Positions 6,218-42,028 of a DNA stretch of 42,028 nt are shown here, one piece after another. Location of the stretch: positions 1 to 42,028 of the forward strand of contig LNEA01000645.1 of the NCBI GenBank assembly GCA_001464855.1, read 5' to 3'. The notes beneath the pieces were generated by a model, which was not told the origin of the DNA, made no database searches, and was given only the letters and a program-made list of their open reading frames with translations. Every line of letters starts with the position of its first letter. The stretch's first letter is position 1. The translations under genes were made by a program, and so were the position numbers. Source of the DNA: Rhizobiales bacterium Ga0077530. Its GTDB lineage: Bacteria > Pseudomonadota > Alphaproteobacteria > Rhizobiales > Hyphomicrobiaceae.

Positions 6218-6799
6218 CTACTTCAGCTCGCCCCAGTCGAAGTCGGGTCCGCACAACGGCACGAACAGAAGCGTCGTACGCCCCATCATCACCTTATCGT
6301 GCGGCTTGAGATCGACATTGGACGTGAGCGCTGCATCGTTGTGATAGACGAGGTTCGGCCGCTCGAGATTGGGCACGAGTTGATACGACCGCTTGCGCTC
6401 GTCGTAGGTGAGAAACGCCTGCTTCTCGCCCGAAATCGCATCGTCGCCGAAGTCGATCGGAACCCGCTGGCTGCCGGAACGGCCGATGGTATTGCTGCCC
6501 TTGAAGATCGGCCTGAAGTTGCCCTTGCCGGGGCCGTCGAGAACGACCAGCCAACCGACCACCGGATCTGCACGCGTGCTCTCGTAGCCCACGGTCTCGT
6601 AACCGAGGATGCGCGTGTGTCCGCTTTCGGCCGCAGCACGCGGAGCCGACGCAGCCGGCGATTGGATCGGTGATGGCGTCGCAAGATGCGTCGCCGCTCC
6701 GCCGCTGTCATGATTGCCGAGGACGCGTGTTTCTTCCTCGGCCATATCGCGGCGATGGCCGCCTCCGGCACCCTTGCCGTCACGTGAGGGCTGCTTCAT
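6218..6799 (-). CDS. FHA-domain phosphothreonine-binding protein
   Basis: A 193-residue cytoplasmic protein. Residues ~1-75 are a low-complexity Gly/Ala/Pro/Ser region with two near-identical motifs, EETRVLGN around T24 and GHTRILGY around T62. Residues ~80-190 form an FHA-like domain: VVGWLVVLDGPGKG, then NTIGRSGSQRV, DFGDDAISGEKQAF, LERPNLVYHND, and the end LLFVPLCGPDFDW, which is typical of a bacterial FHA subfamily. The usual SxxH of the FHA pocket reads SGEK here, so the phosphate pocket may be altered. By analogy with GarA-type proteins, the TR motifs are likely kinase targets that the FHA domain could bind itself. AGAGGT (6805-6810 on the plus strand) precedes the ATG. The kinase gene is divergent, 327 bases away. 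Confidence 0.85.
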   Translation of the reverse strand: MKQPSRDGKGAGGGHRRDMAEEETRVLGNHDSGGAATHLATPSPIQSPAASAPRAAAESGHTRILGYETVGYESTRADPVVGWLVVLDGPGKGNFRPIFKGSNTIGRSGSQRVPIDFGDDAISGEKQAFLTYDERKRSYQLVPNLERPNLVYHNDAALTSNVDLKPHDKVMMGRTTLLFVPLCGPDFDWGELK

Positions 6800-7126
6800 G
6801 GTCGACCTCTTTACAGTTCTTCAAAAGTCATGGTGGCGAGCATTATCGTGCGCCTAAACGGGCCTCGGAGACAAGCACTACCCAGACTCGGCGAACTCGG
6901 GCAAGATCATGTCGCTGGATGGAAAAAACAAGCAATCGAGAGACCAAATCAACGTGAACACCCCGATCGATTGCAGTGCCATTGGCCATCCGGGCACCAC
7001 GAAGTCTGCACTGCGTCTTGCGAAGCGCAACGACGGCATGGCCCGGAAGTGCTATTCCCCGAACCTGTGACGGCGTGCGGTTTAGAAGTTAAAGTTGATT
7101 AACGGGCGCGACCGCGGGGCAGCAAG
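6800..7126. other. Divergent intergenic region between the FHA protein and the kinase
   Basis: 327 bases lie between two divergent starts and must hold the promoters of both halves of the signalling island. Base composition is closer to 55% GC than the flanking genes. Short open frames here show no family-like sequence. I could not pick a convincing -35/-10 pair on either strand. GGGG at 7116-7119, 7 bases before the GTG at 7127, is the likely kinase ribosome-binding site. Confidence 0.5.
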
Positions 7127-8764
7127 GTGAGTCGTCAACCGCTTCCTAGAAATACTATCCTGGGGTCTGGCCTCGATCAATACAGGATCGACAGCGTCCT
7201 GGGGCCGGGCGGCTTCGGCATCACGTATCTCGCCGAGAGCCTGCGCATCCATCGCGAAGTCGCGATCAAGGAATACTTCCCCGCCGAGTTCGCCTACCGC
7301 GATGGCGCGACGACGGTCCAGCCGTTGCGATCCGGGGGCCGCGATCTGTTCGCGGACGGTCTACGCTATTTTGTCGAGGAGGCCCGTGTCCTCGGCCGCT
7401 TCCGTCATGAACACATTGTCCGGGTAATCGGCCTGATCGAGCAGTTCGGCACCGCCTACATGGTGCTGGAGTTCGAGGAAGGGGTGAGCTTCAAGCGCTG
7501 GCTGCAGCAGCTCGGCCGGGCACCGACGCAATCGGAACTCGACGCGGTGCTCGAACCGATCCTGTCGGCGCTCGATACCATTCACGCCCAGCAGCTCTTT
7601 CACCGCGACATCGCCCCCGACAACATCATCATCCGCCCCAACGGCAAACCGGTACTGATCGACTTCGGCGCCGCCCGCCATTTCGCGCGCGAGAATAGCC
7701 ATACGCTCGGGGCAATCGTGAAATCGGGCTACTCGCCGCCCGAGCAGTACACCCTCGACACCAAGCTGCAGGGAGCCTGGAGCGACGTCTACGCGTTGGC
7801 GGCAACGATGCACCATGCGCTGATGGGCCGGCCTCCCGAGGAAGCCTCGAAACGTCAGCTCCACGACACGACGTTGCCGATCGAGGATCACCTGGAGCCA
7901 GTGCTCCTGAGCAGGTATCGCCCGGCGTTTCTCGATGGCGTCAATGCCGGCCTCGCCCTGAAACCGCGGGAACGCCCCGCAACGATCGCCGAATGGCGCC
8001 CGATGCTGATGGGAGACGCGCACGGGGGGCATGCGCACGGGAGCGGGTCCGACAATCGATCCGGCGCGCACGAGCATCGCAATGGGCTTGCTTCCGCCGT
8101 GCATCGCCACACCCGCTCGACCGGCAGAAGCGACGAAACTGGGACAGTCGAGGAGCCACGCACCCAACCCCGGCTCGCGGACGCTGCCCCATTTCCCTCT
8201 TCGCCGAGCGGGGAATCCGGCTCAGGGCTCGCTTCGGCAGTTCAGGCCCTAGCGCTGGCGGCGGCGGCGCTCGGCGGGGTCGGGTTTTTCTGGTTTGGCG
8301 GCGTAGCTCACACCGCGAGTTGGGGAAGCGCGATTGCGTTTATCGTGTCCCTCGGCATCTTTGTTGCTGCCGGCATTGTCGACCTGAACTGGCGTAGTGA
8401 CGGTCTGGACCCGCTTGGCCAAGGGCATTTGCCCAATACCGCCGCCGTTGCGGTGCTGGCATTAGCGGCATTCTGGTTGCCACCGTTCGTGCTGCCGACC
8501 TACTATTTGTCGGCAGCACTGATTGTTTTGGCCGCGCTGAGTTGGCTCGCACCGCGAAGCAGGCTCGTCGCGGGTGGCGTTGTGATTGTCTGCGTGGCGC
8601 ATCTGGTGCTGGCCTTGTGGGTGCTTGCGGCGCAGCCGTTCGGCGCCAACACGTTTGTGATGCTGTTGGGGATTGGTCTCGCTGTTCTTGCGGGACTGAG
8701 CATGGGGGCGGCCGGAATGTGGATGCGGCGAGGCGCGTTGCGGCAAGATGGGGCAAACGCATGA
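7127..8764 (+). CDS. Membrane-anchored bacterial Ser/Thr protein kinase (Hanks type)
   Basis: A 545-residue protein. The kinase domain spans residues ~17-290. It has the glycine loop LGPGGFGITY (25-34), catalytic Lys48 in VAIKEYF, a Glu at 84/85 for the alpha-C salt bridge, HRDIAPDN (159-166, catalytic Asp161 and Asn166), DFGAAR (179-184) and SGYSPPEQYT in the activation segment. HRDIAPDN in place of HRDLKPxN is a variant seen in a bacterial subfamily. After a His/Gly/Ser-rich linker (~295-370), residues ~372-531 form about six hydrophobic helices with short loops and no extracellular PASTA or other sensor. The kinase thus sits on the cytoplasmic face of the membrane. Its substrates are plausibly the FHA proteins and the antiporter. 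The PP2C gene follows 75 bases later. Confidence 0.93.
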   Translation: MSRQPLPRNTILGSGLDQYRIDSVLGPGGFGITYLAESLRIHREVAIKEYFPAEFAYRDGATTVQPLRSGGRDLFADGLRYFVEEARVLGRFRHEHIVRVIGLIEQFGTAYMVLEFEEGVSFKRWLQQLGRAPTQSELDAVLEPILSALDTIHAQQLFHRDIAPDNIIIRPNGKPVLIDFGAARHFARENSHTLGAIVKSGYSPPEQYTLDTKLQGAWSDVYALAATMHHALMGRPPEEASKRQLHDTTLPIEDHLEPVLLSRYRPAFLDGVNAGLALKPRERPATIAEWRPMLMGDAHGGHAHGSGSDNRSGAHEHRNGLASAVHRHTRSTGRSDETGTVEEPRTQPRLADAAPFPSSPSGESGSGLASAVQALALAAAALGGVGFFWFGGVAHTASWGSAIAFIVSLGIFVAAGIVDLNWRSDGLDPLGQGHLPNTAAVAVLALAAFWLPPFVLPTYYLSAALIVLAALSWLAPRSRLVAGGVVIVCVAHLVLALWVLAAQPFGANTFVMLLGIGLAVLAGLSMGAAGMWMRRGALRQDGANA

Positions 8765-8839
8765 GACGCGATCGCTACCGCGCCGGCATGAGACCTGTCG
8801 GGATTTCGGCTTCTCAGCTCAAGTCTTGGGGCGGGCGCC

Positions 8840-9967
8840 ATGATTGAACTCGATACCGCCCAGCACGAGACGATCGGCGCACGCGCCGAGCAGCAGGACG
8901 CCGCAGGGTCGGCCCCGCTCGGCAGCGGGGGTGGCGCGCAGCTCCTGGTCCTCGCCGATGGCCTCGGCGGCCACGCCGACGGTGCGCGCGCGTCGAGGAT
9001 GGTGATCGAAACATTCGAAGATGCCGTTAAAGGTGGCCTCTTTGATGAGCCCGGCGGTCGCCGACAGGCACTCCATGGCGCAATCCAAGAGGTCAACAAG
9101 CGCATCCACGAGGCCACTGATCCCAACGACGGGCATCGCAGCATGGCCAGCACCGCCGTGGCAGCCATTCTCGCCAACGGCACCGTGCGCTGGATCAGCG
9201 TCGGAGACAGTCATCTCTACGTATGCCGCAATGGTCGCCTGTCGAAACTCAATGCAGACCATTCCCAGGCCGGCATCATGATCCGGCATGGATACTCTCC
9301 CAACGACGAGGCGGTGCTCAACGCGCGATCGGTGCTGGTGTCCGCGTTGACCGGCCGGGACATCGAGGAGATCGACACCCCCGCGCATGACGTGGCGCTC
9401 GAGATCGGCGACGTCGTTCTGCTCGCCAGCGACGGCTTGAATACGCTCAGCGATACCGAAATCGCACTCGCCATCGATCAGACCTACGACAAAGGCGCCA
9501 AGGCGATCGCCGAACTTCTGGTCCAGATGGTCGTCGAGCGGGGCTTGCCTCGCCAGGACAATGCGACAGTCATCGTGAGCCGAGTGCTTGGCCGCGGCGC
9601 TCACGCCATGACGGAAGACGGCCCCTCACTGCCGCTGACCCAAGCCAACCCGCGGACGGACATCCCGACGACCCCGGTCGCGGCGGTCGACGAAGTGGCG
9701 CCCGTAGCCGACAGAACCGATCCGCCACCGGCTCGGCCTGCGTCACGGGACGAGGCGATTACGGCCGCGATGCCTGCCCCGAACCCGCAGGTGGAGGCCC
9801 ACTTGGCGCCCGGCGCAGGGGCATCTGCGGCACCCCGGCAGCGATCCGCCACGGACTACGCGGCTGCCGACGCTGGAGCCGCACGGCAGAAACGGCGCTA
9901 TATCCTGGTCAGGATCTTCCTAACGACGCTGGCCGCCGCGGCGGCCGCAACCTACATCCTGGCCTAG
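8840..9967 (+). CDS. PP2C-type Ser/Thr protein phosphatase with C-terminal membrane anchor
   Basis: A 375-residue protein that should reverse the adjacent kinase. The catalytic domain (residues ~1-255) shows the metal-binding motifs of the PPM/PP2C family: EQQDA with Asp20, LADGLGGH with Asp40, VGDSHLYV, LASDGLNTLSD and QDNATVIV. The usual R-xx-NQD near the N-terminus reads RAEQQDA, with Asn replaced by Gln. Residues ~255-345 are a Pro/Ala-rich linker and residues ~353-375 are a basic flank (QKRRY) plus one hydrophobic helix ending at the last residue, that is, a tail anchor. Phosphatase and kinase are therefore both tied to the membrane that holds the FHA-antiporter. A gap of 75 bases and the same direction suggest one transcript. 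Confidence 0.93.
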   Translation: MIELDTAQHETIGARAEQQDAAGSAPLGSGGGAQLLVLADGLGGHADGARASRMVIETFEDAVKGGLFDEPGGRRQALHGAIQEVNKRIHEATDPNDGHRSMASTAVAAILANGTVRWISVGDSHLYVCRNGRLSKLNADHSQAGIMIRHGYSPNDEAVLNARSVLVSALTGRDIEEIDTPAHDVALEIGDVVLLASDGLNTLSDTEIALAIDQTYDKGAKAIAELLVQMVVERGLPRQDNATVIVSRVLGRGAHAMTEDGPSLPLTQANPRTDIPTTPVAAVDEVAPVADRTDPPPARPASRDEAITAAMPAPNPQVEAHLAPGAGASAAPRQRSATDYAAADAGAARQKRRYILVRIFLTTLAAAAAATYILA

Positions 9968-10114
9968 ATTGGTCGCGGCGAGCTCATGCCAGGCCCCAGG
10001 CTGAGGCGTCGGAGGCGGGCTCCGTCGTCCGGCGTCAAATTGGGCCGGCGGGCCAGTCGATTCACTGCTTTTCGGCAAGATGCGGATCAAACTGCCACTT
10101 TTGTGCACCAATTG

Positions 10115-10143
10115 TTGGCAAGTTGGGTTCACCAACCTATCTT
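10115..10143 (+). promoter_or_regulatory. Putative sigma-70-like promoter for ftsH
   Basis: TTGGCA (10115-10120) and TATCTT (10138-10143) are separated by exactly 17 bases, about 100 bases upstream of the ftsH start. The spacer holds a short inverted repeat, GTTGG-gttca-CCAAC (10122-10136), that could be an operator. A heat-shock sigma-32 promoter was considered for ftsH, but the CCATAT-like -10 of alphaproteobacteria is only partly present (CCTATC). Confidence 0.45.
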
Positions 10144-10241
10144 AGGGATAGAAGTTGTGCGCCGGGCCACTCGAGGCCAAGCGATCTGTGCGCGCGAAAG
10201 TGCTGCGCTGGACGGTCGGGCGCCACCAGGAAGGGGTCTAG

Positions 10242-12173
<1,932 letters not shown>

Positions 12174-12200
12174 GGGCTGCAATCCCAGAGACAAGCATCA

Positions 12201-12230
12201 ATCGGGCCCTTCGCGGGGCCCGATTCTTTT
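12201..12230 (+). terminator. Rho-independent terminator between ftsH and folP
   Basis: A perfect 9-bp stem, ATCGGGCCC / GGGCCCGAT, with loop TTCGCG is followed by TCTTTT. It lies 27 bases after the ftsH stop and ends only 8 bases before the folP start, so it should limit readthrough into folP or act as an attenuator. Confidence 0.85.
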
Positions 12231-12238
12231 GTTAGCTG

Positions 12239-13324
12239 GTGGATATGACCCTCCGCACCTACCTGCGCCCGACCGGCCTCGTGATGCCGGCTCACACCCG
12301 CCCGGCCAACGCGCCCGGCGACGTCATCGCCCTCGCTGGTCGCGGCGATCTGGCCTGTGCAGCGGTGCAGGTGATCGCGCGCAGCGGGCCGACGCGCGAT
12401 ATTTCCTACGCCATGTCTGCCGCTGGATTGCGGGCGTGGGCCGCGGACGGCGCCCTCCAGGGGGCGTTCTCGGCGCTGCTAGATCGGCACGAACGCCCCC
12501 GCCCACCACTGCTCACACTCACCCTCGACCGCCCGCGCATCATGGGCATCGTCAACGTCACGCCGGACAGCTTTTCGGATGGCGGGCTGCTCGGCTCCAC
12601 CGACGCAGCGATCGCGCACGCGCTGCGGCTTGCGGCCGAGGGCGCTGACATCCTCGACATCGGGGGTGAGTCGACACGACCGGGCTCGCAGGCGATTACG
12701 GTCGATGAGGAATTGCGCCGTGTGATCCCGGTCATCGAGGGGCTTGCCGGCAAAACCACGGCTCTGATTTCCATCGACACACGCAAGGCCGAGGTCATGC
12801 GCCACGCGTTGGCGGCGGGCGCCCACATCATCAACGACGTCGCAGCGCTAACCTATGAACCCGCTTGCATGGAGGTCGCGGCGGAGTCCGGCGCGCCAGT
12901 CGTCCTGATGCACGCCCAGGGCGATCCGCGCACGATGCAGACAGCGCCGCACTACGATGACTGCCTACTCGACGTTTACGATTGGCTCGCCGCCCGCATC
13001 GACGCATGCATCGCCGCGGGGATCGATCGCACGCGCCTGGTCGTCGACCCCGGCATCGGCTTCGGCAAGACTGTCGACCACAATCTCGAACTCATGGCCG
13101 GCCTCAGCGTGCTTCATGGGCTCGGCGTGCCCGTGTTGCTCGGCGCGTCGCGCAAGCGATTCATCGGCACACTCACGGGCATCAATATTGCCCGCGAGCG
13201 CGTAGCCGGATCGATCGCGGCGACACTGCATGGCGCCGCGCAGGGGGTTCAGATCCTACGCGTCCATGATGTCGCCGAGACGCGACAAGCGCTCACGTTG
13301 TGGGAGGCGATGCAGCGCGGATAG
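12239..13324 (+). CDS. folP: Dihydropteroate synthase
   Basis: FolP joins 6-hydroxymethyl-dihydropterin pyrophosphate and p-aminobenzoate in folate synthesis and is the sulfonamide target. At 361 residues it is ~90 longer than E. coli FolP because of an N-terminal extension seen in alphaproteobacterial homologues. The TIM-barrel core begins near residue 98. It shows GIVNVTPDSFSDGG, DIGGESTRPGS, ISIDTRKAEVM, INDVAAL, LMHAQGDPRTMQ, DPGIGFGKT and GASRKRFIG, covering the pterin and pABA sites. Two starts are possible, GTG 12239 and ATG 12245. The Shine-Dalgarno signal is weak for both because the ftsH terminator ends right there. It is convergent with the rhodanese gene. Confidence 0.95.
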   Translation: MDMTLRTYLRPTGLVMPAHTRPANAPGDVIALAGRGDLACAAVQVIARSGPTRDISYAMSAAGLRAWAADGALQGAFSALLDRHERPRPPLLTLTLDRPRIMGIVNVTPDSFSDGGLLGSTDAAIAHALRLAAEGADILDIGGESTRPGSQAITVDEELRRVIPVIEGLAGKTTALISIDTRKAEVMRHALAAGAHIINDVAALTYEPACMEVAAESGAPVVLMHAQGDPRTMQTAPHYDDCLLDVYDWLAARIDACIAAGIDRTRLVVDPGIGFGKTVDHNLELMAGLSVLHGLGVPVLLGASRKRFIGTLTGINIARERVAGSIAATLHGAAQGVQILRVHDVAETRQALTLWEAMQRG

Positions 13325-14996: not shown

Positions 14997-19235
<4,239 letters not shown>

Positions 19236-19407
19236 CGCATCTCTCCTCGTTCGGGACGTCGGGGCGGGCCGTCCCAGAAGATCGGATCAGGGTCGTCAAC
19301 GCGCACGCGATCCATTCATGTGCGCGCGATCTCGTCTTTCGGCTCAGCTCGATCGAGCCGGCTGAAATCGTCGCCATCCGCATCGCGCGGACGGCGACGT
19401 CATCACA

Positions 19408-23537
<4,130 letters not shown>

Positions 23538-23656
23538 GTGTGCTCCTCTTCGCGTCGCGGATGCCGATGGGCGCTGGCCACCCATCAAAGCATCCCGTGT
23601 GTGTCTTCGGTCGTCATGGACCGGTCGATGGCGACCGATCCTCGAGCAACTCGCCG

Positions 23657-23726
23657 GAGGGTCCCTCACTGCGCTCGCGCGGACCCTCGGGGGAGGTGCC
23701 CAGGCCGGCTTCGGATGAAGCCGGCC
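23657..23726 (-). promoter_or_regulatory. Two hairpins in the rplL-rpoB spacer (attenuator or processing site)
   Basis: Stem 1 is GAGGGTCC (23657-23664) with GGACCCTC (23681-23688). Stem 2 is a perfect 10-bp GGCCGGCTTC (23703-23712) with GAAGCCGGCC (23717-23726) and a 4-base loop. Neither is followed by a U-run on the minus strand. In E. coli the same spacer holds an attenuator and an RNase III site that set the ratio of L7/L12 to RpoB, and a similar role is inferred here. Confidence 0.55.
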
Positions 23727-31269: not shown

Positions 31270-32505
31270 CTAAAATCCGCGTTCCTGTTCGAGGCGCTCA
31301 AACGCGCGCTGCACGTCGACGGCATAGTCGCGCGTGATCGGCACCGCGTCGCGTTTCTTCCCCAGTTGCATGTGGAAGACTTCCTGCGAGCCCGTGCGGA
31401 ACATCATCTCCGCGCTGACCAGATAGAACTCCCACATGCGGCAGAAGCGCTCGTCGTACATCGCCGCGACCTTGGCGCGGTTGGCCTCGAAGCGCTCGTA
31501 CCAGTGCCGCAGCGTCGTCGCGTAGTGCACGCGCAGAAATTCGACATCCGTCACCCACAGGCTGTTGGCCTCGACCACGGGGAAGACCTCGGACAGCGCT
31601 GGCGAGTAGGCGCCAGGAAAGATGTATTTGCGCAGCCATGGACTGGCGGTGCCGGGAGGGCTCATCTTTCCGATCGAATGGAGCAGCATCACACCATCGT
31701 CGGTGAGCAGGTCGTTCACCTTGGCGAAGAACTCGCCGTAGTGACCGACGCCGACATGCTCGAACATACCGACTGAGACGATGCGGTCGAACTTGGTCGT
31801 GAGCTGGCGGTAGTCCTGAAGCTCGAACGTTACGCGATCTGTGAGCCCTGCCACTGTGGTGCGTTCGACCGCCAGCGCAAACTGCTCCTTCGACAGCGTC
31901 ACGCCCAACACTTCGACATCGGCGATCTGCGCGAGATACCGTGCGAGCCCGCCCCAACCCGAGCCGATGTCGAGCACCTTCATGCCCGGCTTCAAGTTGA
32001 GCTTTGCCGCGATGAGACGGCACTTGTTGCGCTGCGCGGCCTCGAGCGTCTCGTCGTCGGTGCGGAAGTACGCGCACGAGTAGAACAGCTCGCGATCCAG
32101 GAACAACTCGTAGAACGGATTGCCCAGGTCGTAGTGGTGGGCGACGTTCTGCTGCGCCTTGCCGATCGGATTGGCCTGCTGGAAGCGCTTGAGCCCACGC
32201 GAGATGCGGCGCAGCACCTGCTGCACGGGCTGCGAACTGAGCGCGAGACGGTTGACCGAGAAGAGCGTCAGAAAGGCGCGTAGCCCCGTTTCCGGGAAGG
32301 TCATGCGGCCGTCCATGTAGGCTTCGCCCGCATGCAGTTCTGGATTGAAGAAAAGTTTGCGATAAAGGCTCGGATCGGTCAGTCGCATGTTGGCCGTGGG
32401 ACCGGGTCGCGTACCGCCGAAGACGTGCGACCGCCCTTCCGCATCGACCACGTTCAGGGTGCCGACCTTCACGAACGAGGTCAGCATTTTCGATAGTGGA
32501 AACAT
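31270..32505 (-). CDS. cfa: Cyclopropane-fatty-acyl-phospholipid synthase
   Basis: A ~411-residue SAM-dependent methyltransferase that converts cis double bonds of membrane lipids to cyclopropane rings in stationary or acid conditions. Motifs are AHHYDLGNPFYELFLD, YSCAYFR, the SAM-binding VLDIGSGWGGLARYLA, and VSVGMFEHVGVGHYGEFF. The ATG at 32505 is preferred, with GGG about 7 bases upstream. A TTG at 32520 is also in frame. The gene ends directly after the hpf stop (convergent). hpf and cfa are both stationary-phase functions, but they are on opposite strands. Confidence 0.93.
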   Translation of the reverse strand: MFPLSKMLTSFVKVGTLNVVDAEGRSHVFGGTRPGPTANMRLTDPSLYRKLFFNPELHAGEAYMDGRMTFPETGLRAFLTLFSVNRLALSSQPVQQVLRRISRGLKRFQQANPIGKAQQNVAHHYDLGNPFYELFLDRELFYSCAYFRTDDETLEAAQRNKCRLIAAKLNLKPGMKVLDIGSGWGGLARYLAQIADVEVLGVTLSKEQFALAVERTTVAGLTDRVTFELQDYRQLTTKFDRIVSVGMFEHVGVGHYGEFFAKVNDLLTDDGVMLLHSIGKMSPPGTASPWLRKYIFPGAYSPALSEVFPVVEANSLWVTDVEFLRVHYATTLRHWYERFEANRAKVAAMYDERFCRMWEFYLVSAEMMFRTGSQEVFHMQLGKKRDAVPITRDYAVDVQRAFERLEQERGF

Positions 32506-32614
32506 TACGCTGCCCGCCAATCGTGAAAAGATCCGTTGTCCAACGACATTGACTCGGTGGAACGCCGCCGTCCACCAGCTCTGGTGCCGCTGTGGAAAAG
32601 GCGGGTTGGGGGTA

Positions 32615-36468: not shown

Positions 36469-37254
36469 ATGCCCCAAAACAGTTGTAGAAGTTCAAGGTT
36501 TGGGGTAGCAACGCCAAATCATCGGACACAATCAAAGAGTTCCAAGCAAGTGTCGAGTGCGCGTTTGAAGTGCCACGCCTTCGTGGATTTTGATGGAACC
36601 ATCGTTCCTCAAGATGCCACCGACTTTCTGTTCGAGCGTTTCGCCGATTCGAGCTGGCGCGATGTCGAAGCCGATTGGCAATCGGGAAAGATCGGATCTC
36701 GCGAATGCCTGACACGGCAGGTCGCGCTACTTCGTGCTGATCCGAAAGACGTGTTGTCGGAAATCGGAGCTCTTGATGTCGATCCGGGGTTTTCGAAATT
36801 CGTCCGCGAATGCGCGAAAGCGGGCGTCGGCATTACTGTCGTTTCCGATGGCTTCGATTACGTGATCGAGAACGTGTTGCGCAACGCGGGTATTGATCTC
36901 GTCTTCAAGGCGAACCATCTCGAACATATCGGCGGCGGGCATTGGCGCGTGACGTTCCCGAATTCACGCAGCTCCTGCATTTCGCTCGCCGGCAACTGCA
37001 AATGCTCATTCACAGAGCCCCATCAGAAGACAATGAAGATCGTTGTCGGCGATGGTCGTTCTGATTTTTGCGTCTCCAAGCACGCCGACCTGGTGTTCGC
37101 GAAGAGCAAGCTGCTGGAGCTGTGCGTCAGCACCGGCGCTACTCACTACCCTTTCGAAAGCTTCTTCGACGTCACTGACAGACTTGGCGTCTGGCTTGAC
37201 GATCCCTCCATAAGGCGTCCTGAAGCAGCGCACGTCTCACAACCAACGCGCTGA
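36469..37254 (+). CDS. HAD-superfamily phosphatase (MtnX/phosphoserine-phosphatase-like)
   Basis: A 261-residue cytoplasmic phosphatase. Motif I is FVDFDGTIV with the nucleophile Asp40 and Asp42. Motif II is VVSDGFDYVI. Motifs III and IV are a Lys before VVGDGRSDFCVSKHAD, with the metal-binding GDGRSD. The order resembles MtnX-type and PSP-type HAD enzymes, which act on small phospho-metabolites, and the SLAGNCKC segment is also seen in MtnX-like proteins. The first ~34 residues are Ser/Lys-rich with no fold. ATG 36469 is chosen because AGGAG (36457-36461) lies 7 bases before it. It opens a rightward cluster with hydrolase, aminotransferase and SMR genes, so its substrate may be a pathway phosphate ester rather than a methionine-salvage compound. 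Confidence 0.85.
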   Translation: MPQNSCRSSRFGVATPNHRTQSKSSKQVSSARLKCHAFVDFDGTIVPQDATDFLFERFADSSWRDVEADWQSGKIGSRECLTRQVALLRADPKDVLSEIGALDVDPGFSKFVRECAKAGVGITVVSDGFDYVIENVLRNAGIDLVFKANHLEHIGGGHWRVTFPNSRSSCISLAGNCKCSFTEPHQKTMKIVVGDGRSDFCVSKHADLVFAKSKLLELCVSTGATHYPFESFFDVTDRLGVWLDDPSIRRPEAAHVSQPTR

Positions 37255-37295
37255 TCTCACGAGACGCTTGGGGCAATAAGAACAAAGGTATCGGC

Positions 37296-38141
37296 ATGAC
37301 TGCGGATGATCGCGGCACGTTCGTGCAAGGGGGCCGGACCGGCTTTTTGCTGCTCCATGGCTTGAGCGGCACGCCGGTCGAGCTGCGCTATATTGCCAAC
37401 GGCCTGACCAGGGAGGGACACACGGTGTCATGCCCGCAACTCGCTGGTCACTGCGGCACTCTCGAAGACCTGACGAATACCCGCTGGCAGGACTGGCATC
37501 AGACGGCCGAGGACGCGCTGCTGAGGCTCCGCGAGCATTGCGATCGCATCATCGTCGGCGGCCTGTCGATGGGGGCAGTACTCGCGCTGCGCGTCGCGGC
37601 CGAAAACCGCAACACCGTTGACGGCATCGTCCTTTATGCCCCGACACTGTGGCTCGATGGTTGGGCTGTTCCCTGGTACGCCGGTCTCTTCAATACCGTC
37701 TTCCAGAAATCGGTGGCGAACCGCATCCAGTTCAGTGAGCGCGCGCCTTACGGGATTAAGGACACGCGCCTGCGAATGATGATCGCGGAAGCGCTTCACA
37801 GTGGCGATCCGTCCAAGGCGGGTTTCTTCAGCATTCCCGGCGGACCGATGCTCGAGCTCAGGTGGCTCGTCAATGATGTGCGCCGGCGCCTCACGGGCAT
37901 TACGCAGCCGGCGCTTGTCATCCATCCGCGCGACGATGATCGGGCCAGCCTGCGGAACGCCACGTACCTCGAAAAGCATCTCGGCGGGCGCGTTCATACG
38001 GTTGTACTCGACGACAGCTATCACATCATCACGCTCGACAAGCAGCGCGACCTTGTGCTCGAACGAACAAAATCATTCGCGGATATGTTGATAGCTGAAT
38101 TAGGCCCGTCGCAAGTTATCGAAACGAAGGCCGTTGCTTGA
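37296..38141 (+). CDS. Alpha/beta hydrolase, carboxylesterase type (copy 1)
   Basis: A 281-residue cytoplasmic alpha/beta hydrolase of the Est30-like group. The oxyanion loop is HGLSGTP (21-27), the nucleophile Ser91 sits in GGLSMG, the acid is probably Asp213 in HPRDDD, and the catalytic His243 is in DDSYHIITLDKQ. There is no signal peptide. The lid segment PTLWLDGWAVPWY is shared with copy 2 (40163-41074), and the two are clear paralogues. It lies 41 bases after the HAD gene. Likely reactions are hydrolysis or transfer of a short acyl or thioester group, but the substrate is unknown. Confidence 0.9.
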   Translation: MTADDRGTFVQGGRTGFLLLHGLSGTPVELRYIANGLTREGHTVSCPQLAGHCGTLEDLTNTRWQDWHQTAEDALLRLREHCDRIIVGGLSMGAVLALRVAAENRNTVDGIVLYAPTLWLDGWAVPWYAGLFNTVFQKSVANRIQFSERAPYGIKDTRLRMMIAEALHSGDPSKAGFFSIPGGPMLELRWLVNDVRRRLTGITQPALVIHPRDDDRASLRNATYLEKHLGGRVHTVVLDDSYHIITLDKQRDLVLERTKSFADMLIAELGPSQVIETKAVA

Positions 38142-38229
38142 ATTCGGCATGGTGAAACGCCGTTAACTATACGGTCCGCAGCTTCTTGTTTCAGGCATGA
38201 GGAACCATCACAGTTTTGAATTGGGCAAG

Positions 38230-38258
38230 TTGAAACAGCCGTCCAGTCGACTGATTAA
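38230..38258 (+). promoter_or_regulatory. Possible promoter of the aminotransferase gene
   Basis: TTGAAA (38230-38235) and GATTAA (38253-38258) are 17 bases apart in an AT-richer 132-base gap, with the -10 ending 15 bases before the ATG at 38274. The -10 matches the consensus at three of six positions. If active it would give a very short leader. Confidence 0.3.
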
Positions 38259-38273
38259 ACAACGGACTAGGGT

Positions 38274-39695
38274 ATGCAAAAGGTGTTCTCAAAAGCAGAC
38301 GAGACGATTGGCTCGCCAGTACGTGGCGAAGCCGAGCTTCTTGAGCTTGAGAACGTCTATTGCTCGCACGGCGATACGGTGCACTACACCAACCCGCCGA
38401 AGATCTTCGATCGCTGCGATGGCTCGTTTATGTACGACGCCCAAGGCCGCGAATTTCTCGACCTTCAGATGTGGTATTCGGCGGTCAACTTCGGTTATCG
38501 CAATCCGCGTCTGAACGAGGCCGCGCACCGTCAGCTCGATAGGCTTCCGCAGGTCGCCTCGCAGTATCTCCATCGCGAGAAGATCGAACTGGCAACCCTG
38601 ATCGCGCGGGATGCCGAAGCCAAGTTTGGCAACAAGGGGCGCGTTCACTTCAATGTCGGTGGTGCCCAGGCCATCGAAGACAGCCTGAAGCTCGTTCGCA
38701 ATTTCAAGAAGGGCAAGAGCCTGATGTTCGCCTTCGAAGGCGGGTATCATGGCCGCACGCTCGCCGCTTCGGCGATTACCTCGTCCTACCGCTATCGCCG
38801 CCGCTATGGCCACTTCGGCGATCGCGCGCAGTTCATCCCGTTTCCGTACCACTTCCGCGGCCCCAAGGGGATGTCGAAGGAAGAGTATGGCGAGCAGTGC
38901 GTGCAGCACTTCGCCCGCCTGTTCGAGAGCGAGTACAACGGCGTCTGGGATCCCAAGGTTGGCGAGGCGGAGTACGCCGCGTTCTACGTTGAGCCGATCC
39001 AGGGCACCGGCGGTTACGTCATCCCGCCGCCGAATTTCTTCAAGGGCCTCAAGAAGGTTCTCGACGACCACGGCATTCTGCTCGTCGTCGACGAAATTCA
39101 AATGGGCTTCTATCGCACCGGCAAACTCTGGTCGATCGAGCACTTCGGCGTTCAGCCGGACGCGCTCGTGTTCGGCAAGGCGATCACAAATGGCCTCAAT
39201 CCGCTGGCAGGCGTTTGGGCGCGCGAGGAGCTGATCAACCCAACGATTTTCCCGCCGGGCTCGACCCACTCGACGTTCAACGCCAACCCAATGGGCACCG
39301 CGATCGCGCTCGAGGCCATGCACATGATGGCCGAGACCGATTACGAGGCCATGGTCATGGAGAAGGGCGCCTATTTCCTCGCCGGCCTCAAGGACCTCCA
39401 GAAGCGGCACAAATGCATCGGCGACGTCGACGGCCTCGGCCTGGCACTGCGCGCCGAGATTTGCGAGCCGCATGACAGCTTCACCCCCTCGAAGCGTCTC
39501 GTCGATCTGATGGTCGACGAGGGCCTCAAGGGCGATCTCAAGGTCGATGGTCGCGCATACGGGCTCGTTCTCGATATCGGCGGATACTACAAGAACGTGA
39601 TCACCCTCGCGCCGAGCCTCCACATCTCCAAGAGCGAGATCGATCTCGCTCTGCGGCTTCTCGATGCGGTGATCACCCGCGTCACGCGCAACTAG
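38274..39695 (+). CDS. Class III PLP-dependent aminotransferase
   Basis: A 473-residue fold-type I enzyme of the class III (ornithine/acetylornithine/omega-amino acid) group. It has VHFNVGGAQAIEDSLKL (phosphate-binding Gly-Ala loop), FEGGYHGRTLAASAIT (ring-stacking), VEPIQGTGGYVIPPPNFFKGL, VVDEIQMGFYRTGKLW (Asp contacting the PLP nitrogen), and the Schiff-base Lys302 in FGKAITNGLNPLAGVW. STHSTFNANPMGTA follows. The amino acceptor is unknown. Together with two esterases and two small transporters it suggests amination of a polar headgroup or lipid intermediate. HpnO-type hopanoid aminotransferases are a possible relative, but no other hopanoid gene is in the window. Confidence 0.93.
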   Translation: MQKVFSKADETIGSPVRGEAELLELENVYCSHGDTVHYTNPPKIFDRCDGSFMYDAQGREFLDLQMWYSAVNFGYRNPRLNEAAHRQLDRLPQVASQYLHREKIELATLIARDAEAKFGNKGRVHFNVGGAQAIEDSLKLVRNFKKGKSLMFAFEGGYHGRTLAASAITSSYRYRRRYGHFGDRAQFIPFPYHFRGPKGMSKEEYGEQCVQHFARLFESEYNGVWDPKVGEAEYAAFYVEPIQGTGGYVIPPPNFFKGLKKVLDDHGILLVVDEIQMGFYRTGKLWSIEHFGVQPDALVFGKAITNGLNPLAGVWAREELINPTIFPPGSTHSTFNANPMGTAIALEAMHMMAETDYEAMVMEKGAYFLAGLKDLQKRHKCIGDVDGLGLALRAEICEPHDSFTPSKRLVDLMVDEGLKGDLKVDGRAYGLVLDIGGYYKNVITLAPSLHISKSEIDLALRLLDAVITRVTRN

Positions 39696-39770
39696 ATGCA
39701 CTGAACGTCGACACCAATTGGGACCAGCGCGCCGGACACGGAGCGCTGATTGGGAAGGGAAGTTGAGTAA

Positions 39771-40145
39771 ATGTCGTTTGCGTCGACTTTGGTGCCGCTG
39801 TTTGCCGCGACCATCGCTTGCGATGTCGCTGGACAGCTGTGCTTCAAGATCGGCGCCAGCCGGCTCCCCGCCCATAGTGGACCCGACCGCGGCGGCTTCC
39901 TGCGCGGCCTGGTCAGCGACGGCTGGCTGCTCGCCGGGATCACGGCCTACGTGGCCCAGCTCATCCTCTGGGTCCAGATCCTGGCAATTCTACCGCTTTC
40001 GGTGGCCTTCCCGATCGCCAGTCTAACCTTCCTCGTGGTGGCCTTGGCCTGCCGCGTTTTCCTCTCCGAGCGTCTCGACGCCGGTCAGTTTGCTGGCGTC
40101 GTGCTGGTGATGGCAGGGGTAGCCATCGTCGCCGGGGCAGCATAG
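39771..40145 (+). CDS. SMR/EamA-like four-helix transporter (first of a pair)
   Basis: A 124-residue membrane protein with four helices: TLVPLFAATIACDVAGQLCFKIGA, LLAGITAYVAQLILWVQILA, LPLSVAFPIASLTFLVVALACRVF and AGQFAGVVLVMAGVAIVAGA. The fold is that of the small multidrug resistance/EmrE group and of the ArnE/ArnF flippase subunits. The motif SVAFPIASLTFL with FLSERL afterwards is typical. Such proteins work as dimers, and a partner of similar size is encoded at 41071. GGGAAG lies before the ATG and the alpha/beta hydrolase gene starts 17 bases downstream. Substrate unknown. Confidence 0.85.
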   Translation: MSFASTLVPLFAATIACDVAGQLCFKIGASRLPAHSGPDRGGFLRGLVSDGWLLAGITAYVAQLILWVQILAILPLSVAFPIASLTFLVVALACRVFLSERLDAGQFAGVVLVMAGVAIVAGAA

Positions 40146-40162
40146 CATCAATAAGAAAGGAC

Positions 40163-41074
40163 ATGAGCCTTCTCATGCAAACGTCTGACAACACCAATAA
40201 AATGGCTATCGCCGAACGGCTGGTCTACGACCAGCCAGGTTTCGGCGAGAATGGCCGCATCGGATTTCTCCTGATCCATGGTCTCGGGGGCACGCCGGTC
40301 GAGCTGCGCTTCGTGGCGCAAGGCCTGACTCGCGCCGGCTTCGCCGTTTACTGCCCGCTGCTCGAGGGCCATGGCGGCACGGACGAAGAGCTCAATGCGA
40401 CGAGCTGGCAGGATTGGTACGAATCCGTCTGCGCCGCACACGACGAGCTCAGTGCGCGCTGCGATATGGTCGTTGTTGGCGGCCTGTCGTCCGGTGCGCT
40501 CCTGGCGCTCCACCTTGCGGCCCAGCGGCCCAACAAGGTGCACGCGACACTCCTGTTCTCGCCGACGATTTGGCCGAACGGCTGGGCCATCCCGAAGGCC
40601 TTCCACCTGTTCAAGCTGGTGCGGCACAAGTGGTTTGCGAACCTGCTGAACTTCAGCGAAGTCGCGCCCTACGGCATCAAGGACGACCGCATCCGTCGCT
40701 TCGTGCTCGATTCGCTTCAGAGCGAAGGCCGGCCGCTGAAGGACATCTTCGGCCGTCGCGGTGGCGTGCTGTGGGAGTTCAAGGCGCTGCGCAACGTCGT
40801 GAAAAAGGAACTGGGATCCGTGCGTCAGCAGACGCTGGTCTTCCATCCGCGCCATGACGATCAGTCGGACATCTCGAACACGATGCAGCTCCAGCGCCAT
40901 CTCGGTGGCCTGGTCGACGTCGTGGTGCTGGATGACAGCTACCACATGGTGACACTGGATCGGCAGCGGACGCTCGTCGTCGATCGATCGGTGGACTATG
41001 GCAATTGGCTCGCCACCCAGCTCAAGCCGCGCAACGAGAGCGCTCCGGCGATCACGACTGCTGCTGCCGAATGA
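40163..41074 (+). CDS. Alpha/beta hydrolase, carboxylesterase type (copy 2)
   Basis: A 303-residue paralogue of the hydrolase at 37296. Shared blocks include GFLL(L/I)HGL-GTPVELR, WQDW, APYGIKD and DDSYH--TLD. The oxyanion loop is HGLGGTP, the nucleophile is Ser109 in GGLSSG (against GGLSMG in copy 1), and the His lies in DDSYHMVTLD. The start is uncertain between ATG 40163 and in-frame ATGs at 40175 and 40202, since the AAAGG at 40156-40160 is only 2 bases from the first. It is tightly packed between two SMR-like genes and overlaps the next one by four bases (ATGA), so they are translationally coupled. Confidence 0.9.
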   Translation: MSLLMQTSDNTNKMAIAERLVYDQPGFGENGRIGFLLIHGLGGTPVELRFVAQGLTRAGFAVYCPLLEGHGGTDEELNATSWQDWYESVCAAHDELSARCDMVVVGGLSSGALLALHLAAQRPNKVHATLLFSPTIWPNGWAIPKAFHLFKLVRHKWFANLLNFSEVAPYGIKDDRIRRFVLDSLQSEGRPLKDIFGRRGGVLWEFKALRNVVKKELGSVRQQTLVFHPRHDDQSDISNTMQLQRHLGGLVDVVVLDDSYHMVTLDRQRTLVVDRSVDYGNWLATQLKPRNESAPAITTAAAE

Positions 41075-41517
41075 GCGATGCCTCCGGGATCGAGCGCCGG
41101 TTGGGCGGAAAGATCCCGGAAACCGCCTCGGCGGCGACGGCATCCACAATTCGCCGCGATATCGGGTTGTGGGGGCTCTTTCTCGCGCTCGACTCCGGCA
41201 CCCAGATCGCATTTAAGGCGGGCGGCAACGCTCTTAACGGCGTCGACTTCGGCATCGCGTGGTTCGACCGCTTTCTGGCAACACCCGCCGTCTGGGCCGG
41301 CCTTGCGGGCTATGTCATCGCCTTCGTATTGTGGATCGCGATCCTCCAGGGCAGTGAACTGACGCGGGCGTTTACGCTGCAGGGGGCCACATTCGTTACC
41401 GTGCCCCTTGGTGGCTGGCTGTTCTTCGGCGAACAGATTTCGCTCGCGCGCGCGGGTGGTATTGCGCTGATCATCATTGGCGTGACGCTCATCAGCCGCC
41501 GGCGTATCGCGACCTGA
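41071..41517 (+). CDS. SMR/EamA-like four-helix transporter (second of a pair)
   Basis: A 148-residue membrane protein. After a ~28-residue polar N-terminus it has four helices: GLWGLFLALDSGTQIAFKAG, VWAGLAGYVIAFVLWIAILQG, AFTLQGATFVTVPLGGWLFF and GGIALIIIGVTLI, ending in SRRR. The third helix pattern TFVTVPLGGWLFFGEQISLA matches EamA/SMR repeats. It differs in sequence from the first SMR-like protein (39771-40145), so the two may form an asymmetric pair like ArnE-ArnF. Its ATG overlaps the TGA of the alpha/beta hydrolase gene (ATGA, 41071-41074). It is convergent with znuA, 19 bases apart. Confidence 0.87.
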   Translation: MSDASGIERRLGGKIPETASAATASTIRRDIGLWGLFLALDSGTQIAFKAGGNALNGVDFGIAWFDRFLATPAVWAGLAGYVIAFVLWIAILQGSELTRAFTLQGATFVTVPLGGWLFFGEQISLARAGGIALIIIGVTLISRRRIAT

Positions 41518-41536: not shown

Positions 41537-42028
41537 TCACTTCAAGCATTGCTCGAAGTCGGCCGCCATATTGCGCAGCAGCGTCGGATAGTGCGCAGCG
41601 CCCGCGGGAATCGATGCGCCGAGCGGATCCAGCACACCTCGCTTCGCCGACGTGTTCTCCGTGATCGTCGCGATCTGGCGCGGCTCGAATTGAGGTTCGG
41701 CAAACACGCAGGCGGTCTTGAGCCGGCTAATCTTCGCGCGCAATGCGCTCAACCGCTTTACGCTCGGTGCAAGATCCGGACTGACGGTGACCGAGCCCAC
41801 CGCCTCGAGCCCGAACCTTTTCTCGAAATACTGGTAGGCATCGTGAAACACGATGAAGGGCCGGTCCGCGAGCGGCGCGAGCTTGGGCGACAGTTCTGCG
41901 GTTAGCGCGGACAGGTCGCGCACGAATGCGTCGGCATTGGATTTGAACGTGAGAGCAGCGTCGGGCCGCGCCTTGCCGAGGACGACAGCAACGTGTGTCG
42001 CAATTAGCGCCGCGTTGGCGGGATCGAG
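41537..42028 (-). CDS. znuA: Zinc ABC transporter substrate-binding protein ZnuA, 5' truncated
   Basis: The C-terminal 163 residues of a periplasmic metal-binding protein, with the frame open to the right edge. The sequence begins LDPANAALIATHVA, matching the ZnuA WLDPxNA segment. It continues with FIVFHDAYQYFEKRFGL, where the His of the zinc site is expected, then VSPDLAPS and the C-terminal EPQFEPRQIATITE and GVLDPLGASI. These fit ZnuA rather than Mn/Fe (SitA/MntC) members. ZnuA delivers Zn2+ to the ZnuBC importer and is usually Zur-regulated. The promoter is outside the window. Confidence 0.93.
   Translation of the reverse strand, partial: LDPANAALIATHVAVVLGKARPDAALTFKSNADAFVRDLSALTAELSPKLAPLADRPFIVFHDAYQYFEKRFGLEAVGSVTVSPDLAPSVKRLSALRAKISRLKTACVFAEPQFEPRQIATITENTSAKRGVLDPLGASIPAGAAHYPTLLRNMAADFEQCLK

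Follow-up and report, generated by a model that had tools for sequence, protein, structure and literature searches.

A patchy proteobacterial gene locus that may make and export an amine-bearing, acylated product

Introduction

What might unite a phosphatase, two lipase-like hydrolases, a class III aminotransferase (AMT) and two small membrane proteins whose genes lie side by side in Rhizobiales bacterium Ga0077530? The window, by which we mean the whole stretch of 42,028 nucleotides that was analysed, comes from contig LNEA01000645.1 of this draft genome. A preliminary description had suggested a pathway of synthesis, amination and flipping whose product is an aminated lipid or a small polar compound, and had named no known pathway with this exact set. 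The gene set is indeed undescribed in the portions of the full-text literature covered (family combinations, and serinol, ceramide, phospho-lyase and N-acyl-serinol chemistry), although this does not prove that no description exists. We tentatively interpret the six genes as one form of a proteobacterial locus with a patchy distribution. Its role would be to produce and export an acylated amphiphile bearing an amine, either an aminolipid or a lipid-like metabolite.

Arrangement of the genes

The six ORFs across positions 36469-41517 were confirmed, all rightward and in the order originally given (Table 1). The close packing of the last three genes also holds: a gap of 17 bases separates SMR1 from hydrolase 2, whose reading frame overlaps that of SMR2 in the ATGA at 41071-41074. 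The SMR2 start at 41071 was read from the sequence; in the ORF list the frame is longer, beginning with TTG at 41005. The ZnuA-type gene at 41537-42028 is not part of the gene set. A role in phage defence was dropped because none of the six proteins has a PADLOC match at E <= 1e-5.

Table 1. Features at the locus and the gene that follows it.
Feature	Position	Strand	Matches and remarks
HAD-IB phosphatase (HAD), MtnX-like subfamily	36469..37254 (ORF from 36466)	+	TIGR01489, PF12710
Alpha/beta-hydrolase 1, monoacylglycerol-lipase-like	37296..38141	+	PF12146
Class III PLP aminotransferase (AMT), unnamed subfamily	38274..39695	+	PF00202
SMR1, four-helix DMT/SMR-like membrane protein	39771..40145	+	EamA match, TM1 acid
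Alpha/beta-hydrolase 2	40163..41074	+	PF12146
SMR2, four-helix DMT/SMR-like membrane protein	41071..41517	+	EamA match, TM1 acid
ZnuA-type protein, truncated by contig end	41537-42028	minus	next gene after SMR2

Conservation in relatives

There are 80 retained loci whose AMT is 75-92% identical to that of the window. The genes stay together in these relatives, which come from alpha-, beta- and gammaproteobacteria, a point on which the preliminary description had staked its reading. A HAD gene is located directly upstream of the AMT in 73 of the 80 loci, a hydrolase is found near it in 67, and SMR-like genes are present in 43, with two of them in 40. The most common order, HAD-AMT-arginase-SMR-hydrolase-FemAB-SMR, has 24 representatives. 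The SMR pair is split by hydrolase and FemAB genes in 28 of the 40 two-SMR loci, and by the hydrolase alone in the window. Smaller sets also occur: HAD, AMT and hydrolase without the other three of the six main families (17/80), HAD and AMT alone (5/80), and AMT with FemAB and arginase but no HAD, hydrolase or SMR (6/80). The exact gene order of the window is absent from the 80 loci, and its nearest relatives (L038-L041) keep just HAD, AMT and hydrolase.

Partners encoded outside the window had been predicted, and several are present: FemAB, which resembles acyl- and aminoacyltransferases, in 50 loci, FabF ketosynthase in 20 and acyl carrier protein in 10. Arginase is found in 39. These counts may be low because of overlapping long ORFs. 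An AMP-ligase had been predicted as well, and none is among the conserved neighbour clusters identified, of which the small ones are partly annotated. Export-related genes include FtsX/DevC-like (25/80), HlyD (24/80) and TolC (15/80); the FtsX/DevC-like count is preferred to that for ABC ATPases (33/80), which may take in unrelated ATPases. Cyclopropane (CFA) synthase occurs in 11 loci, DegT in 8, desaturase in 5 and a short-chain dehydrogenase cluster in 12. The clusters present in at least 20 of the 80 loci are AMT, HAD, hydrolase (ABH), SMR, FemAB, arginase (ARG), a two-component pair, ABC, FtsX and HlyD. The two-component regulator matches NtrC/AtoC-type models, and a neighbour labelled MipA has no NCBIfam match; the MipA and HK labels are provisional.

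Two loci are particularly informative. One (L199) carries AMT-ARG-SMR-desaturase-cyclopropane synthase-ABH-FemAB-SMR on a single strand. Another (L200) has HAD-ARG-SMR-ABH-FemAB-SMR beside a GSA-aminomutase-like class III enzyme in place of this AMT, so the amination step seems to be required and its enzyme swappable.

Across the class the locus is rare (3 of 385 genomes). AMT is found in 25 of 149 related genomes, and in 11 of the 13 that have an SMR1 match at E <= 1e-8, counts that are not independent because the 149 genomes are related. Six draft genomes (G007, G015, G030, G044, G055 and G056) have SMR and FemAB genes on contigs other than that of the AMT. All four congeners searched (G001-G004) carry the AMT and none has an SMR1 match at E <= 1e-3. 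This, together with the 17 loci having only HAD, AMT and hydrolase, means that SMR, FemAB and arginase are dispensable for the core reaction. Of the 149 genomes, 31 have FemAB relatives of 200 bits or more and 17 of these lack AMT, and the FemAB association is weak in the family of the window (14/24 AMT genomes versus 16/65 others). The genome of the window has a FemAB relative (G000:C425) that, in one unsupported FastTree run, clusters with FemAB genes of AMT-less loci. A search of this draft genome, which is 88% complete, revealed no relative of the arginase.

The aminotransferase and phosphatase

AMT matches PF00202 with 257 bits in a Pfam profile search, and its best NCBIfam model gives 277 bits against a cut-off of 552. 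Residue positions were assigned from alignments with 1szk and 1sf2. Lys302, the expected Schiff-base residue, is invariant in all 85 rows, which represent 83 distinct loci, two contigs having been entered twice (L023 = L047 and L026 = L073). Thr245 and Thr444 occupy the positions of Glu211 and Arg398 in 85/85 rows (83/83 distinct loci). The latter pair, in E. coli GABA transaminase numbering, serves that enzyme in handling dicarboxylates. It is the criterion for GABA/ornithine-type class III enzymes, and AMT is without it. Among five other class III enzymes of the same genome, one has Thr at the Arg398 site and two others are likewise without the Arg, whereas the pair is retained in a fourth and the fifth is unaligned there. 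Thus, Thr at this position is not unique to AMT. Two of the five look like omega-transaminases without the same Arg.

The phosphatase exceeds the cut-off of the MtnX-like HAD-IB model TIGR01489 (93.0 bits versus 81.55) and also matches PF12710 (52.2 bits) and PF06888 Put_Phosphatase (32.4 bits). Its D41-F-D-G-T, D196/D200 and C178-K-C180 residues are at least 95% conserved (73 rows, 71 non-duplicate), and its nearest PDB match is the MtnX-type protein 2fea (E 2.1e-14). Identity with MtnX of methionine salvage was ruled out, with equivalog scores of 96.4 and 76.0 bits against cut-offs of 292 or 303.2. The start at 36469 is likely too far upstream: related proteins start near the DFDGT motif, and the true start is probably further in, near for example the GTG at 36550.

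The two hydrolases

The two hydrolases are 46% identical and match PF12146/PF12697, as expected for the paralogous esterases originally reported. Hydrolase 1 (55.5 bits to PF12146) is closest in the PDB to the lipases 7e04 (E 9e-25) and 4lhe (E 4e-24), and its closest relatives lie between HAD and AMT in loci L042 and L044. Hydrolase 2 (58.2 bits) best matches the monoacylglycerol lipase 7e0n (E 1.7e-24). It is 70-72% identical to the AMT-adjacent hydrolase in L038-L041 and is the counterpart of the hydrolase downstream of AMT in relatives. The hydrolase rows compared number 75 (73 non-duplicate). Some relatives have Cys as the nucleophile, which fits a role in acyl transfer.

The membrane protein pair

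SMR1 and SMR2 are four-TM proteins with an acidic residue in TM1, but the label SMR-like has to be read loosely because neither reaches the cut-off of PF00893 (23.7), to which SMR2 scores 16.3 bits and SMR1 has no match at E <= 0.1. The sole PF00893 match of the genome is on another contig. Against PF00892 EamA (cut-off 28.2), SMR1 falls below with 25.0 bits and SMR2 lies above with 29.6. The resemblance to ArnE/ArnF first proposed is not supported. Although Arn subunits are the top NCBIfam models for both proteins, every score is less than half of its cut-off: 46.7 and 41.1 bits for SMR1 and SMR2 with ArnF (cut-off 99), and 42.4 and 25.8 with ArnE (cut-off 92). Membership of the pair in ArnEF was rejected on these scores.

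TM1 carries Asp in both proteins of the window (Asp18 in SMR1). An acid occupies this position, which we take to be like Glu14 of EmrE, in 71 of 83 non-duplicate SMR rows (86 in all; Asp 61, Glu 10) and in 63 of 68 rows from AMT-bearing loci. The register was set by the Q and K that follow, with no EmrE sequence aligned. To our knowledge, ArnE and ArnF have no TM1 acid. The Ara4N-undecaprenol flippase resembles this locus in having two four-helix DMT/SMR-type proteins within an amine-forming gene set. The locus differs in the acidic TM1 residue of its pair and in having no sugar genes among the neighbours identified here.

Partners found only in relatives

Three FemAB members scanned exceed the cut-off of FemAB_like PF04339 (34.6, 45.1 and 55.3 bits versus 27). 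Alignment against PDB sequences gives only weak matches (E 0.034 or worse). The closest folds are those of FemX/FemA, Sba18/Sbb17 and MprF-type aminoacyl-tRNA-dependent enzymes (Z 17.7-21.7, 11-15% identity), including Sba18/Sbb17 solved with streptothrisamine (Z 21.4-21.7). N-myristoyltransferases follow at Z ~16, and thus the fold does not fix the donor. Three arginase partners likewise exceed the cut-off of PF00491 (31.7, 38.7 and 35.8 bits versus 22). The arginase partner has a ureohydrolase fold (Z 20.9-23.6), and H76/H77, D96, H98, D100, D214 and D216, which we presume to be the binuclear metal ligands, are invariant in 18 rows. For the exporter, members of L096 and L046 fall short of the DevBCA models (DevC 72.1 versus 290; DevA 210 and 226.5 versus 295.8), although DevA tops the list for those ATPases.

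A possible route

The additional ketosynthase, acyl carrier protein, desaturase, cyclopropane synthase or DevBCA-like exporter of some relatives points to an acylated, exported product. AMT would aminate a carbonyl precursor other than a dicarboxylate held in the manner of GabT or ArgD, consistent with the observed loss of residues. Perhaps the substrate is a phosphorylated small ketone, a guess prompted by the phosphatase being the most constant partner of AMT. The MtnX-like HAD would then remove the phosphate to give an amino alcohol, and the lipase-like hydrolases may transfer or trim an acyl group. In many relatives, the FemAB-type tandem-GNAT protein may acylate or aminoacylate the amine, and the arginase-type enzyme may trim a guanidino group. 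SMR1 and SMR2 might form a two-part transporter that takes the cationic product through the inner membrane by means of the TM1 acid, from where a DevBCA-like exporter and TolC-type channel could carry it out in some relatives.

Portions of this route have parallels. The RtxA route of rhizobitoxine (DHAP to serinol phosphate, followed by dephosphorylation) also combines an aminotransferase with dephosphorylation to give an amino alcohol. RtxA is described as bifunctional, with an N-terminal part like a Methanobacterium aminotransferase, and the section of PMC3222319 drawn on here states no relation to class III. RtxA homology was therefore dropped as support for serinol chemistry, and a serinol product stays a guess. 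In the Caulobacter ceramide model (Spt, bCerS, CerR), as given in the portion of PMC11087976 used, the amine-bearing base is likewise acylated, in the cytoplasm, before outward movement, whereas no Spt-type condensing enzyme is among the neighbours identified here. PbfA and ethanolamine-phosphate phospho-lyase, which in the part of PMC8154272 consulted are class III lyases acting on small phosphonate or phosphate amines, resemble AMT in having altered specificity residues on this fold. However, AMT scores 212 bits against a PbfA cut-off of 525 and its partners look biosynthetic.

An aminated lipid that would be formed by amination and then flipped, as first suggested, is still the best reading; the ArnEF analogy is weak, and the lipid nature and the flipping are conjectural. 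The presence of direct lipid genes (desaturase, CFA synthase and acyl carrier protein) in a minority of loci counts against a lipid. A more elaborate and improbable version envisages a new class of cationic lipid. Its amino-alcohol base would be acylated, then aminoacylated from tRNA by the FemAB-type protein (arginine is our guess), trimmed by arginase to an ornithine-like head and exported by a proton-coupled heterodimeric SMR pair with the DevBCA-like exporter. The window would then hold the core and transporter without the aminoacylation arm.

Alternative explanations

The alternative that survives best, though we regard it as unlikely, is a small polar amine rather than a lipid: an aminoacylated or otherwise modified amino compound secreted by the SMR pair, with the hydrolases acting on its ester or amide groups. 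The aminoacyl-tRNA-dependent folds closest to FemAB, especially Sba18/Sbb17 with streptothrisamine, agree with this, as do the metal-ligand motifs and ureohydrolase fold of the arginase and a TM1 acid that fits small cations. However, the desaturase and cyclopropane synthase lie within the set in L199, desaturase, acyl carrier protein and FabF genes recur among the 80 loci, and the solved structures closest to both hydrolases are monoacylglycerol lipases.

Rather unlikely is a catabolic or detoxifying locus, in which the hydrolases release an amine, AMT deaminates it and the SMR pair rids the cell of toxic amines. Many SMR proteins are efflux pumps, and the two omega-transaminase-like paralogues also lack the Arg. 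Yet none of the clusters in at least 20 of the 80 loci resembles an uptake system, a dehydrogenase or a CoA ligase; several partners (ketosynthase, acyl carrier protein, desaturase and FemAB-like protein) are biosynthetic; and the locus is rare across the class.

Flipping of an amino-sugar-undecaprenol in the manner of ArnEF, with AMT in the role of ArnB, appears very improbable. The rank of the Arn models and a DegT-type aminotransferase in 8 loci favour it, but the four Arn scores are low, the constant aminotransferase is of class III rather than DegT type, and neither glycosyltransferase nor formyltransferase is among the neighbour clusters identified, the small ones being partly annotated. 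Finally, chance adjacency of unrelated genes on this contig is scarcely credible and was ruled out: although the nearest relatives keep a reduced set and the exact order does not recur, the same families occur jointly in 80 loci in varied orders and strands, and in genomes even on separate contigs, whereas the flanking DacA-like and ZnuA-like genes of the window each recur in only 5 of the 80.

Significance

The same families are kept together across alpha-, beta- and gammaproteobacteria and yet the set is undescribed in the literature searched, which makes the locus a target for lipid and metabolite discovery. Its strict conservation means that one deletion strain would be informative. A secreted metabolite as its product would represent a new natural-product class. 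A cationic lipid, in turn, would be relevant to the charge of the envelope and to the handling of lipids by SMR-type pairs.

Six genes in the window and their flanks

The six ORFs are real and occur in the order claimed in the preliminary description (coordinates confirmed), and the sequence confirms the ATGA overlap that it reported between hydrolase 2 and SMR2. The window spans all 42028 bases of contig C645. The draft genome to which it belongs comprises 4.46 Mb in 747 contigs and is 88% complete. The right neighbour of the set is a ZnuA-like gene on the opposite strand, truncated at the contig end. To the left, a short ORF on the minus strand matches no family, and beyond it is a gene for a D-Ala-D-Ala carboxypeptidase. 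These three flanking genes are outside the set. A cyclopropane fatty acid synthase gene is located ~4 kb to the left of the cluster, and one is likewise found left of the HAD phosphatase gene in L038-L041, the window's nearest relative loci. Several housekeeping genes are also recognised by Pfam.

Coordinates of the six-gene set and of other genes in the window
Feature	Position	Strand	Basis
HAD phosphatase	36469-37254	+	ORF
Hydrolase 1	37296-38141	+	ORF
Class III aminotransferase (AMT)	38274-39695	+	ORF
SMR1	39771-40145	+	ORF
Hydrolase 2	40163-41074	+	ORF
SMR2	41071-41517	+	ORF
Cyclopropane fatty acid synthase	31270-32520	-	PF02353
rpoC and rpoB	15000-23669	-	Pfam
ftsH	10242-12173	+	Pfam
Pterin-binding enzyme	12239-13324	+	Pfam

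Conservation and gene order

A contig scan with AMT as the query revealed 558 stretches encoding relatives, and the best 80 of these (75-92% identity) were kept. The best 80 of 558 loci are drawn from alpha-, beta- and gammaproteobacteria, and because they include several Bosea species they are not 80 independent events; strand and order vary by lineage. The clustering proposed in the preliminary description is borne out, since family members stay together in these relatives. The HAD phosphatase gene is located immediately upstream of AMT on the same strand in 73 of the best 80 of 558 loci, a hydrolase gene is found in 67 and an SMR-like gene in 43, with two SMR-like genes in 40. Absences are due in part to contig ends, as for L109, which starts at AMT. 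As a flank control, the carboxypeptidase and ZnuA-like families are each found in 5 of the 80 loci, four of which are L038-L041.

The commonest order of the six main families is HAD-AMT-arginase-SMR-hydrolase-FemAB-SMR (24/80), followed by HAD-AMT-hydrolase (17/80). The exact order in the window, HAD-hydrolase-AMT-SMR-hydrolase-SMR, is absent from the best 80 of 558 loci, and it can be described as the HAD-hydrolase-AMT-hydrolase type (2/80) plus the SMR pair. There are seven loci that lack HAD, and six share one type, AMT-FemAB-arginase, found in Pigmentiphaga and other Burkholderiales (L095, L101, L103, L104, L106 and L115). Two long ORFs adjoining these genes presumably resemble cyanophycin synthetases.

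Partners outside the window

Judging from scanned representatives, the AMT loci encode a FemAB-like/GNAT protein (50/80), an arginase-family protein (39/80), a DevC-like permease (25/80), HlyD (24/80), FabF ketosynthase (20/80), a NodT/TolC-type channel (15/80), ACP (10/80), a DegT aminotransferase (8/80) and a desaturase (5/80), and none of these is found in the window. At L199 (G461:C96, 168-7734), the order on one strand is AMT-arginase-SMR-desaturase-cyclopropane synthase-hydrolase-FemAB-SMR, wherein the desaturase and cyclopropane fatty acid synthase sit between SMR and hydrolase. At L200 (G413:C1:56000-75000, 6387-13230), HAD-arginase-SMR-hydrolase-FemAB-SMR is found without AMT, and divergent from this set are a desaturase-like ORF and, adjacent to it, a class III enzyme resembling glutamate-1-semialdehyde aminomutase. 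We read this as the substitution of one amine-forming enzyme for another.

Four stretches from AMT-less genomes of the window's family (L174, L175, L180 and L183) carry a FemAB-like gene near varying subsets of DevA-like ABC, DUF2147, hydrolase and FtsX genes. There is no AMT or HAD in these stretches, which possibly represent a second system with common parts.

Among 149 related genomes, AMT is found in 25 (E ≤ 1e-100). Matches to SMR1 occur in 13 genomes at E ≤ 1e-8, 11 of which hold AMT, and in 24 at E ≤ 1e-3, 12 of which hold AMT; there is no match in the four congeners searched (G001-G004), all of which hold AMT. For FemAB, 31 genomes give a strong match (at least 200 bits) and 14 of them hold AMT; the association is weaker inside the window's family (14 of 24 AMT genomes versus 16 of 65 others). 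Strong arginase matches (>300 bits) occur in 4 genomes, 3 with AMT. Six drafts (G007, G015, G030, G044, G055 and G056) have SMR and FemAB genes on contigs other than that of AMT, although these assemblies are fragmented and so contigs do not give the true distance. Across the class AMT is rare: 3 of 385 genomes have it, one of them that of the window. An arginase relative is found in 2 of 385, one immediately beside AMT. AMT is patchily distributed, as accessory metabolism is.

The window's genome has one strong FemAB-like gene, on contig C425 beside a hydrolase gene. In a single FastTree run it clusters with FemAB from AMT-less loci, one of which is from congener G004, whose AMT is elsewhere in the genome. 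An arginase relative was not found in the window's draft genome (88% complete).

The predicted structure of the FemAB-like partner (mean pLDDT 93.2) is closest to those of FemA, FemX and Sba18/Sbb17, the last of which depend on aminoacyl-tRNA (Z 20.2-21.7 for this group, with a best rmsd of 2.9 across 273 residues), followed by MprF-type lipid aminoacyl synthases (Z 17.7-19.5) and N-myristoyltransferases (Z ~16). This ranking favours an aminoacyl donor but is no proof of one, as a common fold shows no function. The arginase-like partner (pLDDT 92.7) is predicted to have a ureohydrolase fold (Z 20.9-23.6 among the matches listed) with metal-ligand motifs retained.

Family placement and residue patterns

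The HAD protein scores above the MtnX-like subfamily cut-off and below the MtnX equivalog cut-offs (NCBIfam), and its closest solved structure by sequence is an MtnX-type phosphatase. AMT is under the cut-off of every one of the 25 NCBIfam models listed and therefore has no named function there. In phmmer alignments, it has Thr at the positions we take to be Glu211 (Glu in the 1sf2 row, Ser in the 1szk row) and Arg398 of E. coli GABA transaminase. All 85 rows, which represent 83 distinct loci, have both Thr residues and the PLP Lys302. Among five other class III enzymes of the same genome, one keeps the Glu/Arg pair and two, which we label omega-transaminase-like, do not; a fourth has Thr at the Arg site and the fifth is not alignable there. 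Because Thr/Thr replaces the Glu/Arg pair, AMT is not of the GabT/ArgD binding type; loss of the pair by itself names no substrate.

The two hydrolases are 46% identical, and their closest solved structures are thermostable monoacylglycerol lipases. The nucleophile is Ser in 67 of 73 non-duplicate rows and Cys in 6. The Cys rows are L027, L073 (identical to L026), L074, L080, L086 and L098, the last four being desaturase-bearing loci. These Cys-bearing proteins may be acyltransferases and not hydrolases.

Both SMR proteins have four transmembrane segments and match the ArnF, ArnE and EamA models weakly. The TM1 position is Asp in 61 and Glu in 10 of 83 rows, the remainder having other residues, and is Asp or Glu in 63 of 68 rows from AMT-bearing loci.

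Possible role of the locus

The preliminary description proposed synthesis, amination and flipping of an aminated lipid or small polar product, by analogy with ArnE/ArnF. This idea is good in outline but the analogy fails, as SMR1 and SMR2 did not pass as ArnE/ArnF members. The best reading, which we put at slightly less than even odds, is that the locus makes an acylated product bearing an amine and exports it.
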